Source of the DNA: Candidatus Cloacimonadota bacterium
Lineage (GTDB): Bacteria > Cloacimonadota > Cloacimonadia > Cloacimonadales > Cloacimonadaceae
Length of the DNA: 38,956 nucleotides
Assembly: GCA_027318475.1 (NCBI GenBank)
Contig: DAHVPC010000007.1
Span: forward strand, 1 to 38,956
Reading direction: 5' to 3'
A program made the translations under genes and the position numbers. Within the stretch, counting starts at the first letter, position 1; every line of letters starts with the position of its first letter. Positions 1 to 38,956 of this stretch are shown piece by piece. The notes beneath the pieces were generated by a model, which saw only the letters and a program-made list of their open reading frames with translations, did no database searches and was not told the origin of the DNA.

Positions 1-5
1 CTTGG

Positions 6-87
6 CCTTAATCAAGTATTAATCAAGCCTTAATCAAGCGTTAATAGTTAAGGCTTGATTAAGGCTTGATTAAGACTTGATTAAGGC
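6..87. repeat. Palindromic 11-bp repeat array, copy 1
   Basis: Three 11-bp units of the type TTAATCAAGCC start at 8, 19 and 30. A 14-bp spacer follows, then three units in the opposite orientation (TTGATTAAGGC type) start at 55, 66 and 77. Read as a hairpin, arm 6-44 pairs with 48-86 around a TAG loop, giving 39 bp with two mismatches. The same architecture recurs at 9079 and 29058. There is no open reading frame and no T-run, and the array lies upstream of a plus-strand gene, so it does not look like an ordinary terminator. The function is unknown: operator array, nucleoid or segregation site, and dispersed palindromic repeat are all possible. The window begins at the element, so its left flank is unseen. 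Confidence 0.9.
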
Positions 88-485
88 TAATCTCCCAGGG
101 CCAGACCAAAAATCCCCAGATAAGAGTATGAGTTCTCCGCTGATTTCTCTACCGATTTCGCTGGTAAATCAATGGATTCAGGGTTTCAGGTTCATTATCC
201 CGCTCCCCTCTAAACCAGTTTGGCAGGGCCCAGATCCCCTCTTCCCAGTCCCTTGAAGTCTTCCTGTAATCAATAAGGTTACAACCTTGAGCAATTGGAA
301 TAAAACTTGCGTGGATTTGTATTTCAGATATCCCTAACCGATTTTTCGGCCCGTTGTTTCCCCATTGGTTGTAAAATGACCAAAAAAGTCGGCAGATCGC
401 TCCCCCATTTTGGGCGCCAACCGTCTATAGAAGTGTAGTTTCATAAGGAAAACCATTAACTGGAGTACGAGATAAGGAGTTTGCC
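88..485. other. Non-coding upstream region of the first secreted-protein gene
   Basis: No convincing gene is present in about 400 bp. The stretch is more AT-rich than the neighbouring genes and ends with an AAGGAG ribosome binding site at about 474-480, just before the ATG at 486. The promoter of that gene should lie here, but I cannot pick a -35/-10 pair with confidence. Confidence 0.6.
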
Positions 486-7139: not shown

Positions 7140-8591
7140 TTATTCTTTACCGATAGCCTTGAGCAGGCGCTCCGCCTCCTCCGCGGTGATTTTGCCGGCT
7201 TCCAGCATTTCCAGGATCTTGATCCGGCTGCGTTCGTCGACCTCACTCTTTTCGCGGCTGCTCATTCCTTTGCCAGCTTTGCCGAAAGCCGATTCCATGG
7301 TTTTGTGCACATAGTCCTTGATGGACTCGGGATCAAAGAATTCGTGGTGGAACTCGAAACCCTTGCCGCCAAAGGGTCCGCGGAATTGCGCACGTTGCTC
7401 GCGAAACCGGGATTCGCCATCGCGGAAGGGGCCTTTCACCTTGCGGAAGATCTCTTTCAGGCCGTCGGCCAGCTCATCGCCCGCTTGTTCGACCACTTTG
7501 ATGACTTTGTCCTTGGTTTCCTGGACCTCAAACTCCTCGACCGCGGTCTTGAGCTTGGCGAGCGAAGCGGCGAGTTTTTCCTGGATATTGGTTTCAGCCA
7601 CGCTGTTGATGGCGCGTTCGATCGCCGCGGTGACTTTTTCCAGCGCCCTGAGCGCTTTTTCCTTGTCCTCTTCGCTCACGGACTTGCCGATCTGTTCTTT
7701 CAATTCCGCCAGTTTGAGGCTGATGAAACCAAATTCTGCCTTGCCTCCGGAACTGATCTTCACCGCTCCGTTTTCCGTACGGACGCTGATCCTGGCGCCG
7801 CCTTCGCCGCGACGGACGATTCTGCGGCCGCCTTCAGTAATGACCTCGGCATCGAGGTTGGCGGTCACGGAACCGTTTTCGGTCTCGGCCTGCAGTTCAA
7901 ACGCGAAATCTTCCGGCACGGACAGATGGATGCGGCCGTTTTCGCTGCTGAAACTGAACTCCCCGTTTTCCACAGGCAGGGTTTCGTAATAGATCAGGCC
8001 GTTTTCGGTGCTGATGTTCACCAGCGGAAAGGCTGCCTGGCGGATCTTGAGGGGGCTGTTCTCAGATTCCACCTCGAGTTTGCTGCCGCTGACCTTTTCC
8101 GCCACCAAGGGCCCGTTTTCCAGATCGATCTCAAATTCGCCGCTGCATTCGCGCAAACTGATCGGGCCGTTTTCCGCCTCGATGTGCGTATGGCCGGAGC
8201 ATTTCTCCAGCGAGACCGGGCCGTTTTCGTTGTGGATCACCAGAGGGCATTCCAGGCCTTGCACACTTAGCGGCCGCACTTCGGATGTCGCCACCACCAT
8301 GAGCTGTTGCGGAACGCGGATCTGCACCAGCGAACCGCGGCTCCCGGCCCATGATTCCGCCAGATGCGGAATTTCGTCCAGGACGATGGAAACCGTCTTT
8401 TCAAAGAGATTCACGTTGAAATATTCGGCGGTGTCGGTGCCGGAGACGAAAGAATGCAGGTTCAGTTCCGCCTCGATCTCGAACTGCCCGGTTTCTGAAG
8501 GGCTGATGAGCACTGGCGCCATGTGGTTTTCGATCTCCACCTTTTCCGCGCCGGTGAAGTCGTAGTTCAGGTTTATCTTGGCTGTTTTCAT
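7140..8591 (-). CDS. DUF4097-type beta-solenoid protein with C-terminal helical hairpin
   Basis: This 483-residue protein lacks a signal peptide. Residues from about 90 to 270 repeat a short strand pattern around ENGP/ENG (ENGPVSLEKCSG, ENGPISLRECSG, ENGPLVAEKVSG and others), as in the putative-adhesin DUF4097/YvlB-like beta-solenoids. A charged helical region follows (about 280-400). The protein closes with RIKILEMLEAGKITAEEAERLL, a small helical module common at the ends of YvlB-like proteins. Its start overlaps the stop of the DUF2089 gene by 4 bp (ATGA), and its AGGAGG lies inside the end of that gene, so the two are co-translated. In firmicutes such proteins belong to envelope-stress systems. 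The role here is an inference. Confidence 0.8.
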   Translation of the reverse strand: MKTAKINLNYDFTGAEKVEIENHMAPVLISPSETGQFEIEAELNLHSFVSGTDTAEYFNVNLFEKTVSIVLDEIPHLAESWAGSRGSLVQIRVPQQLMVVATSEVRPLSVQGLECPLVIHNENGPVSLEKCSGHTHIEAENGPISLRECSGEFEIDLENGPLVAEKVSGSKLEVESENSPLKIRQAAFPLVNISTENGLIYYETLPVENGEFSFSSENGRIHLSVPEDFAFELQAETENGSVTANLDAEVITEGGRRIVRRGEGGARISVRTENGAVKISSGGKAEFGFISLKLAELKEQIGKSVSEEDKEKALRALEKVTAAIERAINSVAETNIQEKLAASLAKLKTAVEEFEVQETKDKVIKVVEQAGDELADGLKEIFRKVKGPFRDGESRFREQRAQFRGPFGGKGFEFHHEFFDPESIKDYVHKTMESAFGKAGKGMSSREKSEVDERSRIKILEMLEAGKITAEEAERLLKAIGKE

Positions 8592-8947
8592 GATTTCCTC
8601 CTTGTGTCAATCATGTTGATGGCTTCCTCCACGGATATGAAGCCCTGCTCCAGATCGCTGAAGATATCGCTGAAATCAGTGGGGGAAGGCTCTTCCCTGG
8701 CGATCACCTTGATGATTTCCGCCAGACGGTTTTTTACGGTTGGATAGGAGATGCCGAGGCGCTTTTCCATCTCTTTGATGTTGCCGCCCACGGTGATGAA
8801 CAAACGTATAAACTCCAGCTGCGCCGGCTTCAAACCGGTCAGCCAGCTGTTGGTGAAGGTCCCCGTGAATCCCACTTCGCAGGCTGGGCAATAGAGTTCC
8901 CGGATCACCAGTTCCTTCTTGCAGATCGGGCAGGATGTCAATTCCAT
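8588..8947 (-). CDS. DUF2089 family zinc-ribbon/HTH protein
   Basis: The protein has about 119 residues. It begins with a zinc-ribbon pattern, CPICKKEL then CPACEVGF, followed by a helix-turn-helix-like segment (IKEMEKRLGISYPTVKNRLAEI). It ends in a short module (DLEQGFISVEEAINMI) that resembles the C-terminal module of the next protein. This arrangement matches the DUF2089 family, presumed DNA-binding regulators. The ORF track begins two codons upstream. AAGGAG touches that first ATG but sits six bases before the ATG at 8947, which I take as the start. It is the first gene of a two-gene operon. It may control its own promoter, since paired repeats lie just upstream. Confidence 0.85.
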   Translation of the reverse strand: MELTSCPICKKELVIRELYCPACEVGFTGTFTNSWLTGLKPAQLEFIRLFITVGGNIKEMEKRLGISYPTVKNRLAEIIKVIAREEPSPTDFSDIFSDLEQGFISVEEAINMIDTRRKS

Positions 8948-8977
8948 GATCATCTCCTTAATAATGTCAATGCCAAG

Positions 8978-9078: not shown

Positions 9079-9158
9079 TTAATCAAGCCTTAATCAAGCC
9101 TTAATCAAGCGTTAATAATAGACACTTGATTAAGGCTTGATTAAGAAGTGATTGACAG
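9079..9158. repeat. Palindromic 11-bp repeat array, copy 2
   Basis: Forward units TTAATCAAGCC start at 9079, 9090 and 9101 (the last ending in CG). A 14-bp spacer follows at 9112-9125, then inverted units start at 9126 and 9137, plus a degenerate third unit at 9148. The geometry is identical to copy 1. The right side shares a 31-bp identical run with copy 3, from the first inverted unit through GTGATTGAC. The array sits between two divergently transcribed genes, in their upstream regions. The degenerate unit includes TTGACA (9152-9157), which could serve as a -35 for the plus-strand gene, but no matching -10 is clear. Confidence 0.92.
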
Positions 9159-9202
9159 GAATCCGCCAGCTGGAAGGATGGAATCCCAGAAAGGAGTTCA
9201 CT

Positions 9203-9646
9203 ATGAAAGTAACTGTAAAAGATGGAATCAAGGGCTTTTCGGGCCGTCTCGACGGAGCGATTTACTATTATCATCCGCGCCTGAAGCGCACCCTGATGCG
9301 CCGCCAGCCAAAAATGCCAGCCCAGCCGCAAAACGCGGACTACGCCACGATCGCCCAGCGGATCAAGGCTTTAAACCCCTCGTCCGCCTACCGCTACGAT
9401 TTCAAGATCTACCTCAGCACCTTGCGCGATCATGACGACCAGGTGACCTATCCCTCCTGGTACAGCCTGTTCGTGAAAATGCTCTGGGCGCTGCAAGCCA
9501 AATACCCCTCTCAGGTGGATCTGAAAACGCTGACCCGGTCGCAGATTATCCAGCAGGAACTGCCTTGCGTATCGGTCAGGGACGCGGTCGAGAATGGCCT
9601 GCTGCCCATGGTCCCCGGCATCGAATATCTGGATCATCAGATCTAA
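9203..9646 (+). CDS. Hypothetical protein, 147 aa
   Basis: I do not recognise this family. The start at 9203 is chosen because AAGGAG precedes ATG by seven bases; the ORF track extends upstream into the repeat without a ribosome site. The protein is basic and soluble. It opens with MKVTVKDGIKGFSGRLDG, followed by a Tyr-rich strand (IYYYHPR), a charged stretch (LKRTLMRRQPKMP) and helices with aromatic residues (SWYSLFVKMLWALQAKYP). There is no signal peptide or membrane segment. It stands alone between palindromic repeat copy 2 and a stem-loop. The basic N-terminus could bind nucleic acid, but this is only a guess. Confidence 0.75.
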   Translation: MKVTVKDGIKGFSGRLDGAIYYYHPRLKRTLMRRQPKMPAQPQNADYATIAQRIKALNPSSAYRYDFKIYLSTLRDHDDQVTYPSWYSLFVKMLWALQAKYPSQVDLKTLTRSQIIQQELPCVSVRDAVENGLLPMVPGIEYLDHQI

Positions 9647-21737: not shown

Positions 21738-24700
21738 CTACTCCAGCAGCAGCATCTTCTTCACGCTCTGATAGGCGCCGGCTCTCATGCGGTAGAAATA
21801 CACCCCGCTGCCGACAGCGCGCCCGCTGTCGTCCAGTCCGTCCCACAGCACGTGGTAATATCCCGCCGGCTGTTGCGCGCTCACGAGCTGGCGCATTTGC
21901 TGCCCCTTCAGGTTATAGATGGCCAGAGTGACGGCAGCCGGATCCTTGAGCGCGTAGGCTATCGTGGTTTCCGGATTGAAGGGATTGGGGTAGTTGCCTG
22001 TGAGTTCGGTGGCGGCAGGCGGAACGAGCGGATCGACAACTGCTGAGCCCGGAGTCAAATGGAAGTTGACCGTCGTGGTCTGGTTTTCCAGCACGCTGAC
22101 GTCCTCCACGGTTTGGGAAATGAAGCCCTGTTTGGAGGCGGTCACATCGTAGGTTCCCACGGGCACCACCAAACTATAGGCTCCGGCGGTATTGGTGGTG
22201 GCGGTGTAGGTGGCCGCGGTGACCGTGGCTCCTGAAATGGGGGCGTTTTGCGTGGTGCGCACCACCCCGGAGATGAAGCCGGTGACCAGTTCCTTGACCA
22301 GCGGATTGGATAGCGAGGGCACGGAGAGGACGTTGGAAGTGTACACCGCTTTCACAGCCCAGCGATAGGTTCCGTTGGGCAAAGCGCCCCAGCCAGTATC
22401 GGTCAAACTCAGGCCGGTGATCGTTTGCGGCGTGAGCGCTACCCAGGCGGTCTCATTTCCTTCCTGGCCGGATGCCAGCCTCCACACCCGGTATCCCACC
22501 AATGCCCGCGAACCATTTCTGCTCACAGCTTGGGAGGGTAAAACCGGCTGGCTGAAGGCTTGATCCTGTCCGGCTCCGAATTGGGCTTTGGAGTAACGCA
22601 GAGGCAGGTCCAGATCCGGCCGCGGCTCGCTCTGCGCCTGAGTTCCGAAGCGAGCAAGCTCACCCGGCAGAAAACGGACCGGATTCACGGAATTGCCGAT
22701 GTAAATGTCGTCGATGAACCACACATACCAGAGGCCGTCGTTGGTGGGGCCGTCCACCGCGTGGAACGCGACCCTTAGTTGCAGGCCTTCGTACATGGCG
22801 AGGTCGATCACGATCGGCGAAGCGTAATAGTTCCAGCCTCCTGTCTGGGCCGAGGCGTCCCAGAGCGTGGTCCAGGTGTTTCCATCGTTGGTGGAGACCT
22901 TCACGTAGTAGTGGTCGCCGTTGGTGGAGCCCTGGAACACGTAGGATGAGAAGCTCAGATAGGCAGCGGGGGGACAGTTGAAACCGGGCGTGACCAGCCA
23001 CTCGTCCTGATGGTCATAGCTCCACCAGAGGCCGGCTTGATATACTCCATCCGGAGGTGTGGCGGGCTGTCCGCTGATGGTGATGGCCCCAAAACGGCAC
23101 CAGGTGGGATACACGCCAGAGGTGTTCGCCGGGCCTGTATTGGTGATGGTTTGGGTCCAGTTGGGGGGCGGGAAGCCGTCCCCTTCGAAGCTCTCCACCA
23201 CGTCCAATGCCGTGGGATCCGGCGCCAGCCAATTCAACTCCACCTGCGCGTTGTTGCCCGCAATTTCGCCATGCACCTGGCGCGGCGCGTAGGCCACTTC
23301 GTTCAGGATGATGGTGCCGAAGTTATAGTTTCCCGCACCGACGTTGATCGTGCCGGATACGTTTTGATAGCCGGGACAGATGACTGTGTAGTTGTAGGTG
23401 AAATTGGCATAGACGCCGGGGATCGTGAATACTCCGGCGGCGTTGGTGCTGGCGGTGTAATCCGCATAGCCTTGCAGGTAGATACCCGCTCCATTCAAAC
23501 CGGCCGAGGTGTCGCTGGCCACCACGGTCCCGCCCACTGCTACCATGGGCATCTGCTGCAGCGTGATATTCAGCGTAATGGTCTGATCCTCAGGTATGGC
23601 CACGGCTTGGGAATGGTCGATGTATCCATAATGGGTGAAACTGAATTGATAGTTGCCGGCGACGATGTTCTGGATGCTGTATTGGCCTTGCGCGTTCGTT
23701 GTTGTGGAGTAGCCACCGGTTGCCGATTGGATGGCGACCCCTGCCAGAGGCTGGTTTCCGGCTCCCAGGACCGTACCGGTGAGATGTCCGACTCCACCGG
23801 GAATGATGAAGAAACTGGTCTTGGGAAATCCGGACGAGGCCGAACCACCGGGAGGACTGGTGGGATCGAACGCCGTGCCGTCCGAATAGGCGTTGCGGGC
23901 GCGCAAGGTGGTTCCGTCCTGAGTTAAAAACACATCCTGGTAGCTGTAGTACTGGGCGTCCATGGGACGCTGGACCATCATCACGAGGTTTTGCCCGGTC
24001 AGATACAAATAGGGCACCGGGAACGAGATGTTGATCAGGTTCTGGCCACTGGGATAACTCACCAATCCGGTAAAGACCTGGGTCAACTGCGTGGAGGGTA
24101 TCCAGTCCGCGCTGAGGTCGGCGCTGGTGGTCGTTCCCAGCCAGACGTTCGTGGGCTGGTTGGGCAGATCGGTCACGAAGTTGTTGTAGAATCCCACGCC
24201 ATAGATGGAGCCGATGGTGTTGCTCAGTTCCGCCGGATAATACATGCACTCGTAGAGCGAGTTCATATAGTACATGTCCAGCGGAATGCGATCGGTCTGC
24301 GAGCCGTCGCCGATTGTCAGCACCACCAGGCCCTGCGGCTGCACGGTCACGTTGTAGTTGGGGCTTTGGTCGTTCAGGTTGTTTTGGTCGCCGGTAAGTG
24401 ACACCTTGCCGTAGATGTAGGTGGCGCCTTGCTCGGTGGGGGTCCAGGGCACAGTTACCTGGACGGTCTGGTTCGGGTTTATGGCCGTTCCGGCCACCGT
24501 TGCCAGCTCGATATCGCCCTGCTTGAATAGCTTTACCTGATAGTTGTTCTGAGCGTTGGTGCCCCAGTTGAAGACGTTGACCACATAGTTGGTGGCCATG
24601 CCCACGGATGGAGTCACATTGCCTTGCACGGAGAGGGCTGCGAGGTCGTTCTGGGGCGTGAATTCCAGCATCACGTTGTCCAGATAGATACCGCGATACA

Positions 24701-29057: not shown

Positions 29058-29137
29058 TTAATCAAGCCTTAATCAAGCCTCAATCAAGCGTTAATAATTA
29101 ACGCTTGATTAAGGCTTGATTAAGAAGTGATTGACTG
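29058..29137. repeat. Palindromic 11-bp repeat array, copy 3
   Basis: Forward units start at 29058, 29069 and 29080, the third with one change (TCAATCAAGCG). A 14-bp spacer follows (29091-29104), then inverted units start at 29105, 29116 and, degenerate, 29127. The layout is the same as copies 1 and 2. The left flank CTTGGC is shared with copy 1, and the right degenerate unit GTGATTGAC with copy 2. It lies between two divergent secreted-protein genes. Confidence 0.92.
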
Positions 29138-29497: not shown

Positions 29498-31153
29498 ATG
29501 AAAAAGCTAATCTTTATGTGTCTCGTAGTTTCCCTGGGCGGCATTCTGAGCGCCCAAACCGATCCCCAATGGCTCTGGGCTACCAGTGCCGGCAGCGCGG
29601 GCAACGATATCAGCTACAGCATCTCCCGCGACAACTACGGCTATCTCTACGTCACTGGATTCTTTCTGGACACCGCCCAATTCGGCGGCACCCATCTCAC
29701 CACTCTGGGAAGCAACGAAATCTTTGTGGCCAAACTGGACGCCAACGGCAACTGGCTCTGGGCAGTCCGGGCCGGCGGAACGGGTGACGACAAAGGCATG
29801 AGCATTTCCACCGATGGGGATGGGAACAGCTATGTGACCGGATATTTCTCCGGCACCGCCGATTTCGGCTCCACCACCCTGACCAGCGCTGGCTCAGCGG
29901 ATATCTTCATCGCCAAACTGGATCCCAGCGGCAACTGGCTTTGGGCCAAACGCGCCGGCGGGCCTTACGAAGATTGGGGAAACATCGTCGCTTTCGACAA
30001 CGGATACTGCTATCTCACCGGAAGGTTTCAAGGCACTTCCAGTTTCGGGGCGCTGACAGTAAGCAGCGCGGGCAGCCACGACATTTTTGTCGCCAGGCTG
30101 GATACCAACGGAAACTGGTTCTGGGTAAGGAGCGCGGGCGGCACGAGCTGGGACGAAGGTGATTGCGTATCCACTGACGCCGGCGGAAATTGCTACGTCT
30201 CCGGATACGTGTATGGCGCCGTCAATCTGGGCCCTTTAACTCTCGATGCCAATGGCGATGATGCTTTTGTCGCCAAACTCGATCCCGACGGCAACTGGCT
30301 CTGGGCAAACTGCTGCGGCGGTTCCGGATTAGCCGGGGCATGGAGCGTTTCCACTGATGACAGCGGCAACAGCGCAGTCACTGGTCCGTTTACGGGCACG
30401 GCTATTTTTGGCACGACCACTTTACAATGCAGCGGTTCCTATGATATCTTCATCGCCCGGATGGATAATGAGGGCAACTGGGTGTGGGCCAGGCGCGCGG
30501 GCGGTAACTACGTGATGGCCGATTACACCGACGTCGGGTGCTGCATATCTCTGGATAACAACGGCGACTGCTATGTGAATGGTTATTATTATGGCGCAGC
30601 TGCCGATTTTGGCACCATCGTGCTGCCCAACGGCGGTTTCTACAATCTCTATGTAACCAAGCTGGATATTGACGGCAACTGGCTGTGGGCGATCACTGTT
30701 GCCGGAATTTCCAATGACAGCTGCTGGGGATTTTGCCTGGATGGTGAGGGGAATGGTTACGGCACAGGAGCGTTTTCCGGAACAACGGATTTTGGCGCAA
30801 CCTCGCTGACCAGCGCTGGCGAAAGGGATATCTGGGTCGGAAAACTCTCCTCCGGAGTGGGTATCGACGACGATCTGGCCCCTGATCTATCCGGCGTATC
30901 CAGCTTATCCGACGCCTGGCCCAATCCCTTCCGGGTTGGCGCTACCGCCACCATCAAAGCCCATGTCGCGGAGCGGGAAAATGGCATCCTCACTCTCTAC
31001 AATCTCCGCGGACAAATCATCCAGAGCCAGCAGCTCGATTCCGGCCCGCATGAGATAGTTATCAACGGAGCCGATCTACCCGCCGGGATCTATCTCTATC
31101 AGCTCAAGACCCCTAGTTCCAACAGCACAAAGAAGCTTGTGCTATTGAAATAG
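29498..31153 (+). CDS. Secreted SBBP-repeat protein 1, seven repeats
   Basis: The protein has 551 residues from ATG 29498, chosen because AAGGAG precedes it and a signal peptide (MKKLIFMCLVVSLGGILSAQ) begins there; the track starts 40 codons early. The body has seven repeats of about 58 residues with the pattern GNxYVTGxFxGT, then FGxTxLTSxGSxDIFVAKLDxxGNWLWA and AGG. This matches the SBBP beta-propeller repeat. The C-terminal module is a variant sorting domain (SDAWPNPFR, LTLYNLRGQI, LPAGIYLYQLKT, KKLVLLK). It is predicted to be exported as a seven-bladed propeller, probably for surface binding. It is the first gene of a tandem family. Confidence 0.9.
   Translation: MKKLIFMCLVVSLGGILSAQTDPQWLWATSAGSAGNDISYSISRDNYGYLYVTGFFLDTAQFGGTHLTTLGSNEIFVAKLDANGNWLWAVRAGGTGDDKGMSISTDGDGNSYVTGYFSGTADFGSTTLTSAGSADIFIAKLDPSGNWLWAKRAGGPYEDWGNIVAFDNGYCYLTGRFQGTSSFGALTVSSAGSHDIFVARLDTNGNWFWVRSAGGTSWDEGDCVSTDAGGNCYVSGYVYGAVNLGPLTLDANGDDAFVAKLDPDGNWLWANCCGGSGLAGAWSVSTDDSGNSAVTGPFTGTAIFGTTTLQCSGSYDIFIARMDNEGNWVWARRAGGNYVMADYTDVGCCISLDNNGDCYVNGYYYGAAADFGTIVLPNGGFYNLYVTKLDIDGNWLWAITVAGISNDSCWGFCLDGEGNGYGTGAFSGTTDFGATSLTSAGERDIWVGKLSSGVGIDDDLAPDLSGVSSLSDAWPNPFRVGATATIKAHVAERENGILTLYNLRGQIIQSQQLDSGPHEIVINGADLPAGIYLYQLKTPSSNSTKKLVLLK
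30966..31112 (+). repeat. 147-bp near-identical block (partner at 32728-32874)
   Basis: This part of the sorting-domain coding region matches 32728-32874 in the next gene at 146 of 147 bases. The repeat regions of the two genes are far more diverged, which points to recent gene conversion or unequal recombination. Confidence 0.9.
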
Positions 31154-31190
31154 TTTAATAACGGACAGCTCCGATCATATTGAAGCGCCT

Positions 31191-31224
31191 GCCAGGGCCT
31201 CGCCCTCAGCAGTAGGGCCCTGGC
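31191..31224 (+). other. Intergenic stem-loop A before SBBP gene 2
   Basis: GCCAGGGCC pairs perfectly with GGCCCTGGC around a 16-base loop, 44 bases before the next ATG. It is homologous to the stem-loops at 32949 and 34701, with a common GCGCCTGCCAGG entry. It could be a terminator without a T-run, an mRNA stabiliser or a leader element. Confidence 0.75.
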
Positions 31225-31268
31225 GGTCAGAAGAACAAAAGGTGAAACATGGATCCAAGGAGGATATC

Positions 31269-32915
31269 ATGAAGCAACTCGTTTTTGTATGTCTCATCCT
31301 TGCCTTGGGCGGCATTCTCAGCGCGCAAAACGACCCGCAATGGGTGTGGGCGACTCGCGCAGGCGGTGCGGGCAACGACTGGGGCTGGCTGGGTGCAACC
31401 GACCAGTTTGGACGAAGTTACATGACGGGATATTTTTCCGACTATGCGGATTTCGGTTCCGAATCTTTCACCAGCAGCGGAGGGATGGATGTGTTTGTAG
31501 CCCAATTGGATTACCTCGGCAACTGGCTCTGGGTAAAAACCGCGGGTGGAACGAGCTTGGACCAGGGAACGGGGATATCGCTCGATTTTGACGGGTGTGT
31601 GTATGTATGCGGCACATTCAATAACTCCGCCACCTTTGGGACAACAACGCTTACCAGCCACGGAGCCCTGGATATCTTCGTCGCCAAGCTGGATAACAAC
31701 GGTAACTGGCTCTGGGCGGTGAATGCCGGAGGTTCTGGTGATGATGCCGGTTACCAGATCACCACGGACAGCGTCGGTAACAGCTATATCACGGGACAGT
31801 TTTCGCAAACCGCCAACTTTGGCGCCCTCTCTCTGGCCAGCGTCGGGGCAAGCGATATCTACGTTGCCAAGCTGGATAACGACGGAAATTGGCTCTGGGC
31901 AACCCGCGCCGGAGGACTCGGCAATGACTTTGGGTATGGGATCACCCGCGACTACTATGGAAACATCTACACCAGCGGTGATTTTCACGGCGTTGCAGAT
32001 TTCGGCGCTACATCCCTCACCAGCACGGGCTTATACTACAACAACTATGTCGCCAAATTGGATGCCAATGGTAACTGGCTCTGGGCAACGCGTGGCGGAG
32101 GAACCGCCGACGCAGAGCTGGCGCCTGCAATATCCATTGGTCAAGGAGGCATACATCTGGCGGGATATTTCGCCGGAACTGCCGATTTCGGAGCTGTGAA
32201 CCTGACCAGCCAGGGAAGCCAGGATATTTACGTCGCGTGCTTGGATATAGCCGGAAACTGGCTTTGGGCGACCCGCGCCGGAGGGCCTCTCTGGGACGCT
32301 GGCTTCGATATCGTGGTGGACGGCTCCGGGAACAGCTATGTGTCAGGGATTTTTCGAAGCTCTTCCAACTTTGGCTTCAACATCATTACGGCTTTGGGTG
32401 ATGGGGACGCTTTCGTAGGCAAGGTCGATGACATTGGTAACTGGGAATGGGTGCTGCGTGGCGGCGGATACGGCGTGGATTCCGCCGTAAACATCTCCAC
32501 CGATTACGACGGGAATTTCTTCGTGTCCGGGGGTTTTAGTTCAACCACGACATATGGAACAACTACATACACTTCCAGCGGCGGTTACGATGTATTGATT
32601 GCCAAACTTTCCGCAGGTGTGGATATCGATGACGATTTGGCCCCTGATCTATCCGGAGTATCCAACTTGTCCGACGCCTGGCCCAATCCCTTCCACACAG
32701 GAGATACTGCATACATCAAGGCCAGAATCGCGGAGCGGGAAAATGGCATCCTCACTCTCTACAATCTCCGCGGACAAATCATCCAGAGCCAGCAGCTCGA
32801 TTCCGGCCCGCATGAGATAGTTATCAACGGAGCCGATCTACCCGCCGGGATCTATCTATATCAGCTCAAGACCCAAACCGTGAGCGCGGTCAAAAAACTG
32901 GTGCTCTTGAAGTGA
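31269..32915 (+). CDS. Secreted SBBP-repeat protein 2, seven repeats
   Basis: The protein has 548 residues from ATG 31269 after AAGGAGG; the track begins nine codons early. The signal peptide is MKQLVFVCLILALGGILSAQ. Seven repeats are counted from the WLWATRAGG-type strands (one initial plus six after KLD/QLD/CLD/KVDxxGN). The sorting module is the SDAWPNPFH variant, almost identical in DNA to that of the preceding gene over 147 bp. It is a tandem paralogue, lying between two homologous intergenic stem-loops, and was probably created by duplication of a unit comprising leader stem-loop, ribosome site and gene. Confidence 0.9.
   Translation: MKQLVFVCLILALGGILSAQNDPQWVWATRAGGAGNDWGWLGATDQFGRSYMTGYFSDYADFGSESFTSSGGMDVFVAQLDYLGNWLWVKTAGGTSLDQGTGISLDFDGCVYVCGTFNNSATFGTTTLTSHGALDIFVAKLDNNGNWLWAVNAGGSGDDAGYQITTDSVGNSYITGQFSQTANFGALSLASVGASDIYVAKLDNDGNWLWATRAGGLGNDFGYGITRDYYGNIYTSGDFHGVADFGATSLTSTGLYYNNYVAKLDANGNWLWATRGGGTADAELAPAISIGQGGIHLAGYFAGTADFGAVNLTSQGSQDIYVACLDIAGNWLWATRAGGPLWDAGFDIVVDGSGNSYVSGIFRSSSNFGFNIITALGDGDAFVGKVDDIGNWEWVLRGGGYGVDSAVNISTDYDGNFFVSGGFSSTTTYGTTTYTSSGGYDVLIAKLSAGVDIDDDLAPDLSGVSNLSDAWPNPFHTGDTAYIKARIAERENGILTLYNLRGQIIQSQQLDSGPHEIVINGADLPAGIYLYQLKTQTVSAVKKLVLLK
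32728..32874 (+). repeat. 147-bp near-identical block (partner at 30966-31112)
   Basis: This is the second member of the pair described at 30966. The single difference is TATCTC against TATCTA in the TATCTxTATC stretch. Confidence 0.9.
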
Positions 32916-32948
32916 AGGAGTTCTATCCTACCCATATTAAACGATGCG

Positions 32949-32988
32949 CCTGCCAGGACCAGGATCTGATCAGTCCGTACCTGGCAGG
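32949..32988 (+). other. Intergenic stem-loop B before SBBP gene 3
   Basis: CCTGCCAGG pairs perfectly with CCTGGCAGG, 39 bases before the next ATG. Downstream, AAACATGATCC and AGGAGGAATC are shared with stem-loop C. The stem sequence differs from A and C while pairing is kept. Confidence 0.75.
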
Positions 32989-33027
32989 TAAAATAATATC
33001 CTACAAACATGATCCATAGGAGGAATC

Positions 33028-34668
33028 ATGAAGAACCTATTCTTAGTATGTATTGTTGTTTTCCTGGGCAGTATGGTTTATGCGCAAACCGATCCGCAGT
33101 GGTTGTGGGCGTCAGGAGCCGGAGGAAGCGGCGCTGACGAAGCTTCGCGCATCGCTGTGGACAGCGCCGGCAACAGCTATGTGGCTGGGTATTTCAGCGG
33201 AACTGCCGATTTCGATGGAATCTCCCTGACCAGCGCTGGAGCAACGGACATTTTTGTAGCCAAGCTGGATCCCGACGGCAACTGGCTTTGGGCCAAACGA
33301 GCCGGCGGTACCATGGCCGACGACGCCTATGGTGTTTGCACAGATGGCGATGCCAACGTCAACATCACCGGTTATTTCAAATCCACCGCCCTGTTTGGCA
33401 CTATCTCCCTCACCAGTAGCGGCGCGGAAGACATCTTCGTCGCCAAACTGGATGCCAACGGCAATTGGCTGTATGCAGAAAGAGCCGGCGGAGCAGGATT
33501 CGATGCCGGAACCCGCCTGATCCCGGACAGCAACGGAGATATACTCATAACGGGAGCCTACGCCAATTCCGCGTCATTCGGCTCGATCACTATCACTGGA
33601 GATGCAGGTTATAACGTGTTTGTGGCCAAACTTGACATGTACGCTGAATGGGTCTGGGTGACCCAAGCTGTGGGATCCGGCAATATGTATGGAAACGACA
33701 TTTCCACCGACGGCGCTAATTGCTACATCATCGGCGGTTTGAACGGAACCCTCACCTTCGGCGCCACAACCATGTCCAGCGCGGGAAACTGGGATATCTG
33801 CCTGGCCAAACTGGATGGAGAAGGCAACTGGGTCTGGGTGAAAACCGCCGGAGGCACCAATGAAGACGCCGGCTACGCGATTTCCTGCGACAGCAACGGC
33901 TATTCCCTGATCACGGGATATTTCCAGGCCTATTCCAATTTTGGCACTTTCCATCATACCAGCTCCGGGGATGAAGATATTTTCATTGCCAGGCTCGATC
34001 CCAGCGGCAATTGGCTCTGGGTGCTGCCAGCTGGAGGAACCGCCATTGATTACGGCGGGGACGTTTATATGGACAATTATGGGAATTGTTACGCGATCGG
34101 CTGCTTCTCGTTGACTTTCGAACTGGGAAACCACACTTACACCAGCCAAGGAAGTCAGGACATCTTTATCGCCAGATTGGATCACCAGGGAAATTGCCTC
34201 TGGGCGACCAGCATCGGAGGCAACGGGGTGGACGTGGGTTTCGGCATCGTCACCGATAACGCCGGAAACTACTATGTATGCGGTTCTTTCTCCTCTTCCG
34301 TGGCCTTTGGCAGCACCTGGCTGAACAGCGCCGGAGGCTATGATATCTGGGTCGGTAAACTTTCCTCCGGAGTGGGGATCGACGACGAACTGGCTCCTGC
34401 AGCAACGGAGGTGTCCAGTCTGTCCGACGCCTGGCCCAATCCTTTCCGATCTGGCGATACAGCATATATCAAAGCCAATATCGCTGAGCGAGAAAGCGGA
34501 ACACTTACGCTCTTCAACCTCCGGGGACAAATCGTGCAAAGCCATTACCTCAGTTCCGGAGCCCATCAGATCAGCGTTGATGGCAGCGACCTGCCCGCTG
34601 GGATCTATCTTTATCAACTTAAAACCCAGACCACGAACACGACCAAGAAGCTGGTGCTCTGGAAGTGA
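33028..34668 (+). CDS. Secreted SBBP-repeat protein 3, seven repeats
   Basis: The 546-residue protein has a signal peptide (MKNLFLVCIVVFLGSMVYAQ) and AGGAGG before ATG. Seven SBBP repeats are present, with one degenerate copy in which GN is replaced (KLDMYAEWVWVTQAVG). The C-terminus is the SDAWPNPFR variant sorting module (LTLFNLRGQIVQS, LPAGIYLYQL), diverged from those of genes 1 and 2. The export and fold inference is as for the other family members. No catalytic residues are apparent. Confidence 0.9.
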   Translation: MKNLFLVCIVVFLGSMVYAQTDPQWLWASGAGGSGADEASRIAVDSAGNSYVAGYFSGTADFDGISLTSAGATDIFVAKLDPDGNWLWAKRAGGTMADDAYGVCTDGDANVNITGYFKSTALFGTISLTSSGAEDIFVAKLDANGNWLYAERAGGAGFDAGTRLIPDSNGDILITGAYANSASFGSITITGDAGYNVFVAKLDMYAEWVWVTQAVGSGNMYGNDISTDGANCYIIGGLNGTLTFGATTMSSAGNWDICLAKLDGEGNWVWVKTAGGTNEDAGYAISCDSNGYSLITGYFQAYSNFGTFHHTSSGDEDIFIARLDPSGNWLWVLPAGGTAIDYGGDVYMDNYGNCYAIGCFSLTFELGNHTYTSQGSQDIFIARLDHQGNCLWATSIGGNGVDVGFGIVTDNAGNYYVCGSFSSSVAFGSTWLNSAGGYDIWVGKLSSGVGIDDELAPAATEVSSLSDAWPNPFRSGDTAYIKANIAERESGTLTLFNLRGQIVQSHYLSSGAHQISVDGSDLPAGIYLYQLKTQTTNTTKKLVLWK

Positions 34669-34700
34669 TAGAGTTCTATCTTAACCAGAATGTAATAAGC

Positions 34701-34742
34701 GCCTGCCAGGACCCGGTTCTCATCAAGTCGGGTCTGGCGGGC
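34701..34742 (+). other. Intergenic stem-loop C before SBBP gene 4
   Basis: GCCTGCCAGGACCCG pairs with CGGGTCTGGCGGGC, with one bulged base and one G-U pair, 38 bases before the next ATG. It is the longest stem of the three related intergenic hairpins. Confidence 0.75.
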
Positions 34743-34780
34743 AAAATAACAACCAGCAAACATGATCCCCAGGAGGAATC

Positions 34781-36445
34781 ATGAAGAACCTGATCGTTGT
34801 ATGTTTCGTTGCTTTCATTGTCAGTATGGCCTGCGCGCAGATTCCTGAGTGGGAATGGGCGATACAAGCGGGAGGTTCAAGTCTATATGATGGCGGATCG
34901 AGTATCGCCGCAGACATGCAAGGGAACCTCTATGTGACAGGTAGCTTTGAGGGAACCGTAAACTTCGGCGCCACCACGCTTACCAGCAATGGCAGCAGAG
35001 ATATCTATGCCGTCAAACTGGACAATGGCGGCAACGTCCTCTGGGCGGTCAATGCTGGCGGGACGGCGTATGATGGGGGCTCTGGAATTGCCGTGGATTC
35101 TGCCGGCAATGCCTATCTGGCGGGATATTTCAGGGGCACTGTTGTTTGTGGCTCCGACACACTTATCAGCGACTCCAACCGCGATGATATCTTTGCCGCC
35201 AAACTGGATGGTGACGGCAATTTCCTCTGGGCCAGGAGAGCAGGTGGGTCTGGCGATGACTTCTGCGCGGGTATTACCGTGGATTCCGCCGGCAATGCCT
35301 TTCTGACCGGACATTTTGCGGGAGGCGCTTTCTTTGGCACCCACTATCTCTACAGCAGCGGACTCTATGAAATCTTCGCCGCTAAACTAGGCAGCGACGG
35401 CAATTGGCTTTGGGCGGTCCAGGCAGGTGGAGCCAACATTGATCTGGGCCGTAAGATTGCCGTGGATGATGCAAGCAACGCCTTTGTGACTGGAAGGTTT
35501 ACCGGATCAGCCTATTTCGGCGCCACCATGGTAAGCGGCAACCAAGGAAGCGCCGACGTATTTATTGCCAAACTTGACAACAGCGGAACCTGGCTTTGGG
35601 TCAAACGCGCAGGTGGATCAAGCTCTGATGACTATGGCTACGATATCGCCTTGAACAACGACGGAAACGCCTACCTGACCGGAAGTTTTCTAGGCACCGC
35701 CACCTTTGGCGAAACAACGCTTATCAGCAGCGGCGGGTACGAGATTTTTGCCGCCAAGTTGGACAGCAGCGGCAATTGGCTCTGGGCGGTCAAAGCCGGC
35801 GGGATATATAACGATACCAGTTATGGCATTGCTGTGGATGCAGCGGGGAACGCCTATCTGACCGGTGAGTTTGTGGGGACAGCCTACTTTGGAACAAACA
35901 CGCTCACCATTACCGGATACAAGAACATTTTCACTGCCAAACTAGACGGCATGGGCAACTGGCTCTGGGCAGTCCAAGCAGGCGGGGATAGAGACGATTC
36001 GGGCTATGGCATTGCCGTGGATGACACCGCCAACGTCTATCTGACCGGGTTTTTCCAGGAATCCGCCTCCTTTGGCCCCACAGTCCTCACCAGTTATGGT
36101 GGCAAAGATATCTTTATCGCAAAGCTTTCACCTGGAGTGGGTACCGACGATGACGTGCAGATCCCTGAATCAGCCTTTCAGATGATGAACTACCCCAATC
36201 CCTTCAACCCGGAAACCACGGTATCATATACTTTGCCCGCTGCAGGAATGGTATCTCTGCAGATCTGCAACAGCCGGGGACAGATGGTGAGAAGCCTGTT
36301 GCATGAAGAGCAGCCAGCGGGCGAACATTCCCTCATCTGGAACGGCAAAGACGATTCCGGCCACAGCGTGGCCTCGGGCTTGTACCTTTGCCGGATCGCT
36401 TGTAATGGAAACCAGGAAACGAGGAAGATGCTGCTGCTCAAATAG
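34781..36445 (+). CDS. Secreted SBBP-repeat protein 4 with canonical sorting domain
   Basis: The protein has 554 residues, with a signal peptide (MKNLIVVCFVAFIVSMACAQ) and AGGAGG before ATG. Seven SBBP repeats are again seen, with many IAVDSAGNAYLTG strands. Unlike its three upstream paralogues, it ends in the canonical module (MMNYPNPFNPETTVSYTL, SRGQMVRSLL, SGLYLCRI). That module is close in DNA sequence to the end of the next gene, which has a different body. This suggests the C-terminal cassette was exchanged between neighbours. Confidence 0.9.
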   Translation: MKNLIVVCFVAFIVSMACAQIPEWEWAIQAGGSSLYDGGSSIAADMQGNLYVTGSFEGTVNFGATTLTSNGSRDIYAVKLDNGGNVLWAVNAGGTAYDGGSGIAVDSAGNAYLAGYFRGTVVCGSDTLISDSNRDDIFAAKLDGDGNFLWARRAGGSGDDFCAGITVDSAGNAFLTGHFAGGAFFGTHYLYSSGLYEIFAAKLGSDGNWLWAVQAGGANIDLGRKIAVDDASNAFVTGRFTGSAYFGATMVSGNQGSADVFIAKLDNSGTWLWVKRAGGSSSDDYGYDIALNNDGNAYLTGSFLGTATFGETTLISSGGYEIFAAKLDSSGNWLWAVKAGGIYNDTSYGIAVDAAGNAYLTGEFVGTAYFGTNTLTITGYKNIFTAKLDGMGNWLWAVQAGGDRDDSGYGIAVDDTANVYLTGFFQESASFGPTVLTSYGGKDIFIAKLSPGVGTDDDVQIPESAFQMMNYPNPFNPETTVSYTLPAAGMVSLQICNSRGQMVRSLLHEEQPAGEHSLIWNGKDDSGHSVASGLYLCRIACNGNQETRKMLLLK

Positions 36446-36488
36446 GATCTTACTAAACATTTAAACTCTCTTTCCAATGGAGGAAAAG

Positions 36489-38675
36489 ATGAAAGCACTA
36501 TCTCTGATCATTTTGGCCTTGCTCTTTACTACATCACTATGCGCAGTAAAAAGCACCCGCAACGAAGTTGTGTGGTGGGAGGAGGATTTTGAAAGCGCGG
36601 CTCCAGGCTGGACGCATTTTTGCTATCCTGCGAACATCTGGCATAGTGAAAGGTATTGGACAGGTGAGGGTCACAGGGACAGATGGGTTATGGGTGAGGG
36701 ATACTTTGACCACCAATACCTGGTTTTGGATACCCCTGAGCGCACCCTGGCAGACTCAAACGCGACCCTGTCCTTTCTACTTCAATGTCGTATCCAAGGT
36801 ACAGCAGGAGCAACGGCACCTTACGACGGTTGGGATGCCTTCAATGTCCGCATTTCCACGGACGGTGGCACAACCTGGACCCCGATCTACGGAACTCCCG
36901 CCTATAATATGAGCTCATCCTACGCATTCGGTGCCGAGTTCGGCGAAGGACCCGGGGTTCCTGGATGGGGAGGAGAATTTGTATGGCAAGCAGCCAATTT
37001 TAACCTGGGTGCTTATATTGGGCAAACTGTGAAGATCCGATTCGCCTTTGCTTCGGACTCGACCACAACAGCAAATGATTACTACGTAGAAGTTAGCCAA
37101 ATATCCTTCGGCGGATACACCAACGGATCGTCGGGATCTTACTACCCAATCGATAATAGTAGTCTTGATGACAATCAGATGACAATTGCCAACCTCAGTA
37201 CACCTTCCGAAGACATCTGGCAAGTAGCCGTTGACGCAACCGCTCCGTCGCCGGTTCATATCATGAAATGCCAAAACACGCAGGGGACTTACAACGCCAA
37301 TATCAGGGATTTCCTGATAAGCCCACCCATCGACCTACCCCCTGATGGCTTCATACGGGCGGACTTCATGTATCGGGGCGGTATGAACGATCCTGAACAC
37401 GATTACGTTGCTTGGGATGTCTGTTACAGTATCGATGGCATTTTTGGAGGGTGGTTTAGCATGGGTCCATACTCCTGGCCCGGATTCGATCCCCCAGCAA
37501 CATGGTCCTCTATGGCAGGAAATTATGAAACGGAACTCGCCGCTTATGCTGGCCAAACGGTCAGATTCCGCTGGATCTTCATATCCGATGAAGACACACC
37601 GGAGGGGATCGGGCTTCTGATCGACGACTGTAAAATCTTGTACCATCCGGTCCTGAATCCACCGGAAAATCTGGAGGCAACTGTCAATGGTGGCAATATC
37701 ATCCTGACCTGGAATACACAGGTATCTTCCAGAGAGGATGGTCAATCCCGTCACGCCGCCACCTACAAAATTTACAGGGGTCATGAACAGATTGCAATGG
37801 TCACAGCTGACTTGGATACCTATACGGATGAGGAAGTGCCTGCAGGACACCATTCTTATTATGTGACAGCGGCAGATGGCCCCTACGAATCTGAACATAC
37901 AAATACAGTCACTGTTTTTTTGCCTAATGCCTCCCATATTGAGCTTTTCCATGATGACGGAACTGCCGAAAATTTTAGCGACCTTTTTCAATTGGCGGTT
38001 AAGTACACTTATGATGCGCCAGTCACCCTCAGATACGTCAAGGTTTATGTAGACTCTGTGGGGTCTCCCGGTTTTATGCGCCTTGAGCTCTATGTTTATG
38101 ATGATGACGGTCCAAATGGCTTGCCTGGGTCTTTTATACTCGATTATGTTTCTCCGAACTTTTTTGTGTGGGAAGGATGGAACTGGATTGCCGTGAACAT
38201 AGATCTGCCGGAAGGTCAATTCTACATTAGTGTACGCCCGTTCTACGATGGTCCCAGGATTGGATTTGACACATCCTCCCATGGCTTCAGCTATTATCAG
38301 TATATAGGCACACAGTGGTTCCCCTTCACATGGGGAGAACTAATGATCCGCGCCATTGTTGAGCCTACTGTGGCCAATGACGATGATGTGATACCTCCGC
38401 TTACACTTGATCTGAGCAACTACCCCAACCCCTTCAACCCGGAAACCACGATTTCCTATACTGTGCCAACAGCGGGATCGGTGTCCCTGGAGATCTACAA
38501 CAGCCGGGGACAATTGGTAAGAAGCCTGCTGCAGGAAGAGCAGACCGCAGGGGAACATTCCCTCATCTGGAACGGCAGGGACGACTCTGGAAACAGCGTG
38601 GCCTCGGGCTTGTACCTTTGCCGCATCACCTGCAACGGCAAACAGGAAACGAGGAAGCTGCTGCTGTTGAAGTAA
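36489..38675 (+). CDS. Secreted MAM/FN3-like protein with sorting domain
   Basis: The protein has 728 residues from ATG 36489; GGAGGAAAAG precedes it, and MKALSLIILALLFTTSLCA is a signal peptide. Two MAM or jelly-roll-like domains follow (about 25-200 with WWEEDFESAAPGWTHF, and about 225-380 ending in IGLLIDDCKI). A fibronectin-III-like domain is next (about 385-475: PPENLEATVNGGNIILTWNT), then another sandwich (ELFHDDGTAENF), and the canonical sorting module (NYPNPFNPETTISYTV, SRGQLVRSLL). No protease motif was found. The middle of the gene looks more AT-rich than the SBBP genes around it. It interrupts the tandem SBBP array. Confidence 0.87.
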   Translation: MKALSLIILALLFTTSLCAVKSTRNEVVWWEEDFESAAPGWTHFCYPANIWHSERYWTGEGHRDRWVMGEGYFDHQYLVLDTPERTLADSNATLSFLLQCRIQGTAGATAPYDGWDAFNVRISTDGGTTWTPIYGTPAYNMSSSYAFGAEFGEGPGVPGWGGEFVWQAANFNLGAYIGQTVKIRFAFASDSTTTANDYYVEVSQISFGGYTNGSSGSYYPIDNSSLDDNQMTIANLSTPSEDIWQVAVDATAPSPVHIMKCQNTQGTYNANIRDFLISPPIDLPPDGFIRADFMYRGGMNDPEHDYVAWDVCYSIDGIFGGWFSMGPYSWPGFDPPATWSSMAGNYETELAAYAGQTVRFRWIFISDEDTPEGIGLLIDDCKILYHPVLNPPENLEATVNGGNIILTWNTQVSSREDGQSRHAATYKIYRGHEQIAMVTADLDTYTDEEVPAGHHSYYVTAADGPYESEHTNTVTVFLPNASHIELFHDDGTAENFSDLFQLAVKYTYDAPVTLRYVKVYVDSVGSPGFMRLELYVYDDDGPNGLPGSFILDYVSPNFFVWEGWNWIAVNIDLPEGQFYISVRPFYDGPRIGFDTSSHGFSYYQYIGTQWFPFTWGELMIRAIVEPTVANDDDVIPPLTLDLSNYPNPFNPETTISYTVPTAGSVSLEIYNSRGQLVRSLLQEEQTAGEHSLIWNGRDDSGNSVASGLYLCRITCNGKQETRKLLLLK

Positions 38676-38695
38676 GAACAACTATGGAGCTTACC

Positions 38696-38956
38696 ATGAG
38701 ACACTTGGTGATATGCATCATCCTGCTCTGCGGAGCGATGTTGCTCAGCGCTCAAACCCCGCAGTGGCAATGGGCAGTCAGGGCGGGTGGATCAGGAAAT
38801 GATCAAGTGCTGGCCATGGCCAGCGACGGCCTGGGTAATCAGTATTTGACTGGATCGTTTAGCGGAACAGCCGATTTCGGGCCTATTTCACTCACGTCCA
38901 GCGTCCTCAGGGATATCTACATCGCCAAACTGGATGACAGTGGCGACTGGCTGTGG
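38696..38956 (+). CDS. Secreted SBBP-repeat protein 5, partial
   Basis: This frame is absent from the ORF track because it runs off the window end. ATG 38696 follows GGAG by six bases and opens a signal peptide (MRHLVICIILLCGAMLLSAQ), then TPQWQWAVRAGGSGND and one complete repeat (GNQYLTGSFSGTADFG to IYIAKLDDSGDWLW). The reading frame is open for 87 codons to the last base. It is a fifth member of the SBBP family, placed 20 bp after the MAM/FN3-like gene and probably co-transcribed with it. Confidence 0.88.
   Translation, partial: MRHLVICIILLCGAMLLSAQTPQWQWAVRAGGSGNDQVLAMASDGLGNQYLTGSFSGTADFGPISLTSSVLRDIYIAKLDDSGDWLW

Follow-up and report, generated by a model that had tools for sequence, protein, structure and literature searches.

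The window, a 38,956-nt stretch, is contig C229 of a draft genome of 2.34 Mb in 251 contigs (G000, ~89% complete) and carries three copies of a long palindrome, the second of which lies upstream of a gene for a 147-amino-acid (147-aa) protein (Table 1). The original prediction had described three copies, each composed of three repeated units, a 14-bp spacer, and three inverted units. All three are present where they had been placed, and we refined each to a core of exactly 77 bp, or 7 × 11 bp. The three 11-bp units (TTAATCAAGCC-like) and their inverted counterparts stand as described, whereas what had been called the spacer is more aptly an 11-bp dyad (TTAATNATTAA) in register with them. Self-complementary positions number 70, 62, and 66 of 77 in copies 1, 2, and 3, respectively, and single-strand folding gave z-scores of −14.4, −9.0, and −12.5 as RNA and −17.8, −8.7, and −11.3 as DNA, with no shuffle as good in any case. 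The 11-bp period had been taken to place all half-sites on one face of the helix, which holds approximately, as 11.0 versus 10.5 bp amounts to ~17 degrees of drift per unit.

A detector blind to sequence, requiring 38-bp arms of at least 72% complementarity, matched exactly these three copies in the window and nothing in 390 kb of first-order random sequence. Detector thresholds varied among our scripts (complementarity 0.66–0.78, periodicity 0.40–0.50), and threshold-dependent counts move slightly, e.g., 36 versus 37 elements in G000; the conclusions are independent of the exact value. Using Rfam curated models at gathering score, a tRNA was the sole match in the window, and the palindromes had none.

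Table 1. Positions of the palindromes and neighboring features within the window
Feature	Positions	Strand	Remarks
Copy 1, core	8..84	.	Three units, dyad, three inverted units; 77 bp; contig end
Copy 1 with outer arms	2..101	.	CTCCCAGGG side is the conserved family I end in G000
DUF2089 zinc-ribbon/HTH protein gene	8588..8953		Left of copy 2; divergent from the 147-aa gene
Copy 2, core	9079..9155	.	Orthologous palindromes elsewhere at about the same distance from the 147-aa gene
Inferred promoter	9152..9180	+	TTGACA overlapping the end of copy 2, 16-bp spacer, weak −10-like AAGGAT, then GG
147-aa protein gene	9203..9646	+	Function not assigned by profile; relatives in all 49 family genomes searched
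Copy 3, core	29058..29134	.	Divergent flanks: 21738–28685 (minus) and 29498–31153 (plus)
Run of related genes	29498..38956		~183-bp internal repeats, beta-propeller (SBBP) signatures, type IX secretion C-terminal domains

The neighbors of copies 2 and 3 are divergently transcribed, as had been noted, and copy 1 sits at the contig end. The first 92 bp of the window are identical to the last 92 bp of contig C205, and because of this overlap the left neighbor of copy 1 is probably a plus-strand gene ending ~0.9 kb away, in tandem arrangement. The DUF2089 protein encoded to the left of copy 2 is a possible regulator; the pairing of its gene with the 147-aa gene is not conserved in G008.

The palindromes had also been proposed to belong to a genome-wide repeat family of no described type, and searches of the draft genome and of its relatives bore this out: the family is abundant elsewhere in G000 and in some congeners, near-exclusive to Cloacimonadota, and without an Rfam match. 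Counts in G000 rest on pattern matches. A two-unit pattern located 42 places (family I), or approximately 41 loci when the copy at the ends of C205 and C229, which their overlap suggests is shared, is counted once. A second family (II), with TCATTGCG-NNN units that use other letters than family I but the same 77-bp core, accounts for ~48 further places among the matches listed, against a background of ~10% at three mismatches as estimated from a reversed control pattern. The scale of the system thus exceeds what three copies in a window could show. The inverted ends of the elements read CGCCCTGG..CCAGnGCG or GGCTCCC..GGGAGC. Conservation runs ~18 bp beyond the core as complementary outer arms in G000, G006, and G008 and then stops; in G003 elements it stops after ~8 bp. 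Core and complementary outer arms together make a whole element of ~93–115 bp, the range for the family also being given as roughly 80–115 bp. No G000 copy falls inside a predicted gene, and about a dozen contigs break off a few hundred bases or less from a copy, as repeats would give.

Gaps occupied in five congeneric genomes comprise 24 divergent, 25 convergent, and 27 tandem arrangements, counts that are approximate because they use codon-based gene calls made for this analysis. The claim that the elements occupy promoter-side regions and not gene ends fails in general on these figures, which rule out a promoter-side role for all copies; it survives as a conserved feature of copy 2 and not of the dispersed copies. 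Nor are the copies found mainly between convergent genes, the arrangement that the original prediction had named as counting against it. Flanking-gene orientation bears equally on a role at the RNA level, in which long hairpins in untranslated regions would act as bidirectional terminators or govern how stable the mRNA is, functions that have been proposed for ERIC and Correia elements. The RNA hairpins are very stable, many copies do lie between convergent genes, and 11 bp is close to the pitch of A-form helices. However, copies between divergent genes are just as numerous, copy 2 showed no terminator-like T-tract, and the best-conserved copy is upstream of an inferred promoter and hence outside that transcript, leaving an RNA-level role improbable.

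In a collection of 84,980 species genomes, the family I unit pair occurs in 46 stretches, 44 of which are from Cloacimonadota. When only ATCA/TGAT was fixed, at 11-bp pitch, 33 of 124 genomes of the phylum gave matches, almost all of them members of one family, and the control gave hardly any; judged by such matches, family I is essentially confined to one family of Cloacimonadota. Matches to this looser pattern range from 0 to ~80 per genome and are patchy even among sister species. We rejected a phage origin, as viral contigs yielded no exact matches. The unit letters are species specific and the 7 × 11 layout is constant: units read TTAATCAAGCC in G000, G001, and G008; TCTATCACTTG and TCTATCCACTG in G006, which has two families as does G000; TTAATCTACCC in G017; TTAATCCCCTC in G033; GGAATCAATAC in G003; and TTAGTATAACC in G013. 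Between congeners, the unit sequence is replaced wholesale, with the two arms covarying. This is an unusual case, in which the geometry of a repeat, seven mirror-complementary 11-bp blocks, outlasts complete replacement of its sequence.

Since the looser pattern requires ATCA, its zero counts could conceal other letters, and we therefore performed a sequence-blind scan of 702 kb from four congeners (G002, G007, G009, and G011). Where the G000 pattern density leads to an expectation of ~24 palindromes, a single one was detected, beside the 147-aa ortholog of G009. At least this congener, as far as sampled, retains the promoter copy only, and the patchy occurrence among congeners supplies natural controls.

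We examined 24 regions upstream of 147-aa homologs, namely that of the best homolog in each of 23 genomes and that of a second G000 copy (L135). Exclusion of L175, which lacks a usable start, left 23 usable regions from 22 genomes, belonging to close homologs (51%–100% identity). By inspection, 21 of the 23 carry a palindrome or a decayed 11-bp array, the array being decayed or rearranged in two (L165 and L172), and neither was seen in L169 and L170. Twenty of these promoter palindromes could be extracted in register; in 19, the core ends 47–50 bp before the start codon, and in the remaining one the distance is 54 bp. What follows downstream mostly conforms to a consensus of TTGAC, ~16–17 bp, a −10-like A/T-rich hexamer and then GG, and a strong ribosome site. 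Because the TTGAC and −10-like pattern recurs across orthologs, we infer that the palindrome lies directly upstream of, and overlaps, a promoter, with the last unit of copy 2 probably forming the TTGAC; a simple promoter scan of the window did not call the promoter listed in Table 1. Operators with helically phased half-sites combine phased units and dyad symmetry at promoters. Copy 2 and its orthologs resemble them in each respect, and their position relative to the start of the 147-aa gene is conserved across species, as in an operator. In contrast to such operators, the units of the element differ within an arm, and the dispersed copies are not preferentially at promoters.

The variable letters of the promoter copy equal those of the dispersed units in nine of ten genomes when compared by eye and unblinded, G017 being the exception. 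Given this match, and given that G009 keeps only its promoter copy, we favor the promoter copy as the source of the dispersed ones or as a site evolving in step with them. A fixed copy at one gene provides a concrete place to ask whether such repeats begin as regulatory sites. Upstream of 20 divergent 147-aa paralogs there are no family II elements; the tandem repeats found there have mixed periods of 7–11, and period 11 is for this reason mainly a feature of close orthologs. At L395–L398 and L401–L405, upstream of 147-aa paralogs, 7–10-bp tandem repeats (AATTCGTG, AATCCGTAG, TTAACTC, and GCCCTTTT) stand just upstream of the ribosome site. A divergent paralog in G011 is preceded by four tandem 11-bp AGCTTATGTCC units and an inverted partial unit (L393, G011:C66); no dispersed element was found in that genome.

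We assessed pairing between the arms in an ungapped alignment of 18 orthologous promoter sites. Mirror cells are paired in 83% of cases, and 20 of 37 mirror pairs show change on both sides; within the unit, positions 7–11 are the variable ones. Cells changed on both sides number 47, compared with 19.3 ± 3.2 after shuffling (0 of 500 as high) and 7–11 in slid structures, with the caveat that related sequences may beat shuffles without any structure and that the slid versions are handicapped too. We regard this covariation as good but not absolute evidence that the arms pair, and it could reflect selection to maintain a hairpin or cruciform, or else palindromes being corrected by template switching. 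The suggestion that the elements are sites for a polymerizing DNA-binding protein found no support, since the units of an arm may all be unlike one another and yet each remain complementary to its mirror unit. Such a pattern fits a hairpin/cruciform constraint, or perfection by template switching, better than one protein reading six identical half-sites.

As judged by flanking genes, about a dozen gaps are occupied in two or three species, including pairs whose unit letters differ. The element lies on the same side of the gene in 21 adjacent ortholog pairs and on the opposite side in 3, the 21 including the 147-aa site and several cases in which two flanks belong to one site, for ~12 independent sites. 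Of 12 genomes inspected, 3 have an element in the gap next to one shared-site gene; the gap preceding a GyrB-like gene, a name given on its N-terminal sequence alone, is filled in 4 of 13, two by family I and two by family II. Both gaps were picked as already known shared sites, which biases these fractions upward. A third protein search, made to trace one site through the congeners, matched a repeated C-terminal domain and was informative for G000 and G008 only. In G005, a decayed-looking TCAAGTCTTGA-like array lies upstream of the GyrB-like gene (L310), in the gap occupied in four congeners. Intergenic DNA is not alignable between species beyond the promoter, so that no filled and empty sites could be matched at base level, and no target-site duplication is evident in aligned element flanks. 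Strict orthology of the dispersed sites was rejected: shared gaps exist, but their DNA is unalignable and different families fill the same gap. That a single gap can contain either family suggests that tolerant gaps have received insertions more than once, and conserved function is also possible.

This last point leads to the possibility that the copies are sites of a chromosome-organizing or regulatory protein, perhaps the 147-aa protein itself, with a species-specific code in which all units change at once with the protein. Consistent with this, the position upstream of the 147-aa gene is conserved over ~20 species, the 11-bp pitch is fixed with a nearly invariant T..ATC phase, and some intergenic sites are common to species with different unit letters (G001 L244 and G003 L285, where both flanks are orthologous, and G008 L236 and G006 L260). 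Within the genus, moreover, at least ~20 dispersed family I copies occur in four of five genomes with a close 147-aa ortholog and in none of eight without, a comparison that ignores kinship and depends on the letters searched. We nonetheless consider protein sites unlikely, because units within an arm differ freely while mirror pairs covary, whole congeners appear to lack dispersed copies, and the occurrence of families I and II in the GyrB-like gap of different species looks like repeated insertion. The 147-aa protein, for its part, matches nothing in Pfam, NCBIfam, or PHROGs, has no recognizable DNA-binding domain, and gave no significant match in a PDB profile search; a structure model built from two sequences (pLDDT 46) was too poor for a fold search.

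The copies look like small mobile repeats, and the reading we prefer, to which we assign a probability of about 0.55, is that they are dispersed, non-autonomous mobile hairpin repeats working like REPINs, ERICs, or MITEs, with family I most likely derived from, or kept in step with, the palindrome at the 147-aa promoter. On this model, a non-coding hairpin would multiply within genomes as a non-autonomous mobile element and settle in long intergenic gaps. Recognition would be mainly of a hairpin of fixed geometry, with the unit letters free to drift and become homogenized within a genome while the arms stay complementary; unit sequence is indeed concerted in most genomes compared. At the 147-aa promoter, the last unit would supply the −35 TTGAC, and the palindrome would probably serve as an operator or cruciform switch. 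Against mobility, intergenic positions shared between species also fit conserved functional sites. A related proposal, which we find quite improbable, is that of an escaped promoter operator, wherein the 147-aa protein recognizes a 7 × 11-bp cruciform by its geometry and not by its letters, regulates its own promoter through it, and is required for the dispersed copies to spread or persist. Recognition of geometry by the protein would then account for an architecture that is conserved and a sequence that is free.

Mobile hairpin repeats, as we favor, have precedents. REPINs and the REP-RAYT system (PMC3116915, PMC6006769) share with the Cloacimonadota repeats an extragenic hairpin of similar size, formed by an inverted pair and present in tens to hundreds of copies, as well as genome-specific sequence families, compensatory stem changes, and more than one family per genome. 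Unlike REPINs, the Cloacimonadota repeats have an 11-bp internal periodicity, and the aligned element ends show no conserved tetranucleotide like the GT[AG]G foot at the REPIN hairpin base. ERIC, YPAL, RUP, Correia, and other bacterial MITEs (PMC2229807) are likewise <200 bp, non-coding, and intergenic, with inverted ends, and for most of them the mobilizing transposase is unknown (PMC2229807). Three-unit tandem arms at 11-bp pitch and an essentially Cloacimonadota-restricted range set the present elements apart, and we saw neither target-site duplications nor TA ends of the MITE type in them. Ends shared with an autonomous element are limited to a 25-bp insertion sequence (IS) end on one side, in some genomes only. 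We conclude that the repeats most likely represent a new architecture of mobile hairpin repeat, REPIN/ERIC/MITE-like in its working but failing the RAYT and foot tests for a REPIN. A search of mainly open-access literature turned up no prior account of an intergenic repeat system from this phylum.

A canonical RAYT (NF047646) as mobilizer is ruled out, as its presence does not track the repeats: G000, G008, and G012 (drafts, 71%–89% complete) have many elements and no NF047646 match, and G005 and G007 encode a RAYT and have 0 pattern matches. An IS200-like TnpA-Y1 could instead move the copies in trans, as RAYTs are thought to move REPINs. The proteins in question (~150 aa; DH[VI]H, WQ, and Y..NQ..HH) fit subclass 1.2 of PMC6006769, which is described as being without REP sequences. 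In genus g1, the seven genomes with a strong Y1_Tnp match all have at least 39 pattern matches and the six without have 0–7, and elements lie 136–871 bp downstream of four TnpA-Y1 genes. Four of four independent tree pairs agree with the association, but four pairs cannot reach significance (p = 0.125; we ran many sequential tests, and p values are uncorrected for multiplicity). Outside the genus, G017, G019, G020, and G026 contain many elements and no strong Y1_Tnp match. Moreover, every TnpA-Y1 gene examined has short flanking palindromes of its own that differ from the 7 × 11 element, which is on this account unlikely to be the main substrate of these proteins. We therefore downgraded this candidate, attractive by correlation, to a very remote one. 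The flanking palindromes are type specific and often form arrays, e.g., of GAGTCCCATCGGGACGGCATTTTAGATAG or GAGTCTCGGAGAGACGATAGTTTAGGTCAA (L187, L188, L189, L190, L192, L195, L198, L199, L213, and L215).

Alternatively, the copies might be MITEs of an IS3-type insertion sequence. A 25-bp IS-end motif (TGACCCGTCCTGAAATAGGTTGACC and variants) abuts 24 of 43 elements in the collection loci and 10 of 20 in G006, where eight loci run into the IS3-type element itself, whose open reading frame start matches HTH_Tnp_1. Yet an element usually carries the motif at a single end, most copies in G000, G008, and G003 lack it, and its position is explained equally well if the IS targets the repeats for insertion, so that we judge derivation from this IS highly unlikely. 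The repeats may be a target of the IS3-type element, or the two may have ends in common, an arrangement reminiscent of insertion sequences that target REP repeats. This IS, with an OrfA start of MKKTRPQVRYSEEFKRTVVEEIEAG, or a truncated fragment lies exactly at the palindrome end at L137, L143, L149, L151, L262–L264, and L266 in G006, and an IS3-type element or truncated piece is similarly placed at L033, L035, L038, L048, L062, L065, and L069 in G001.
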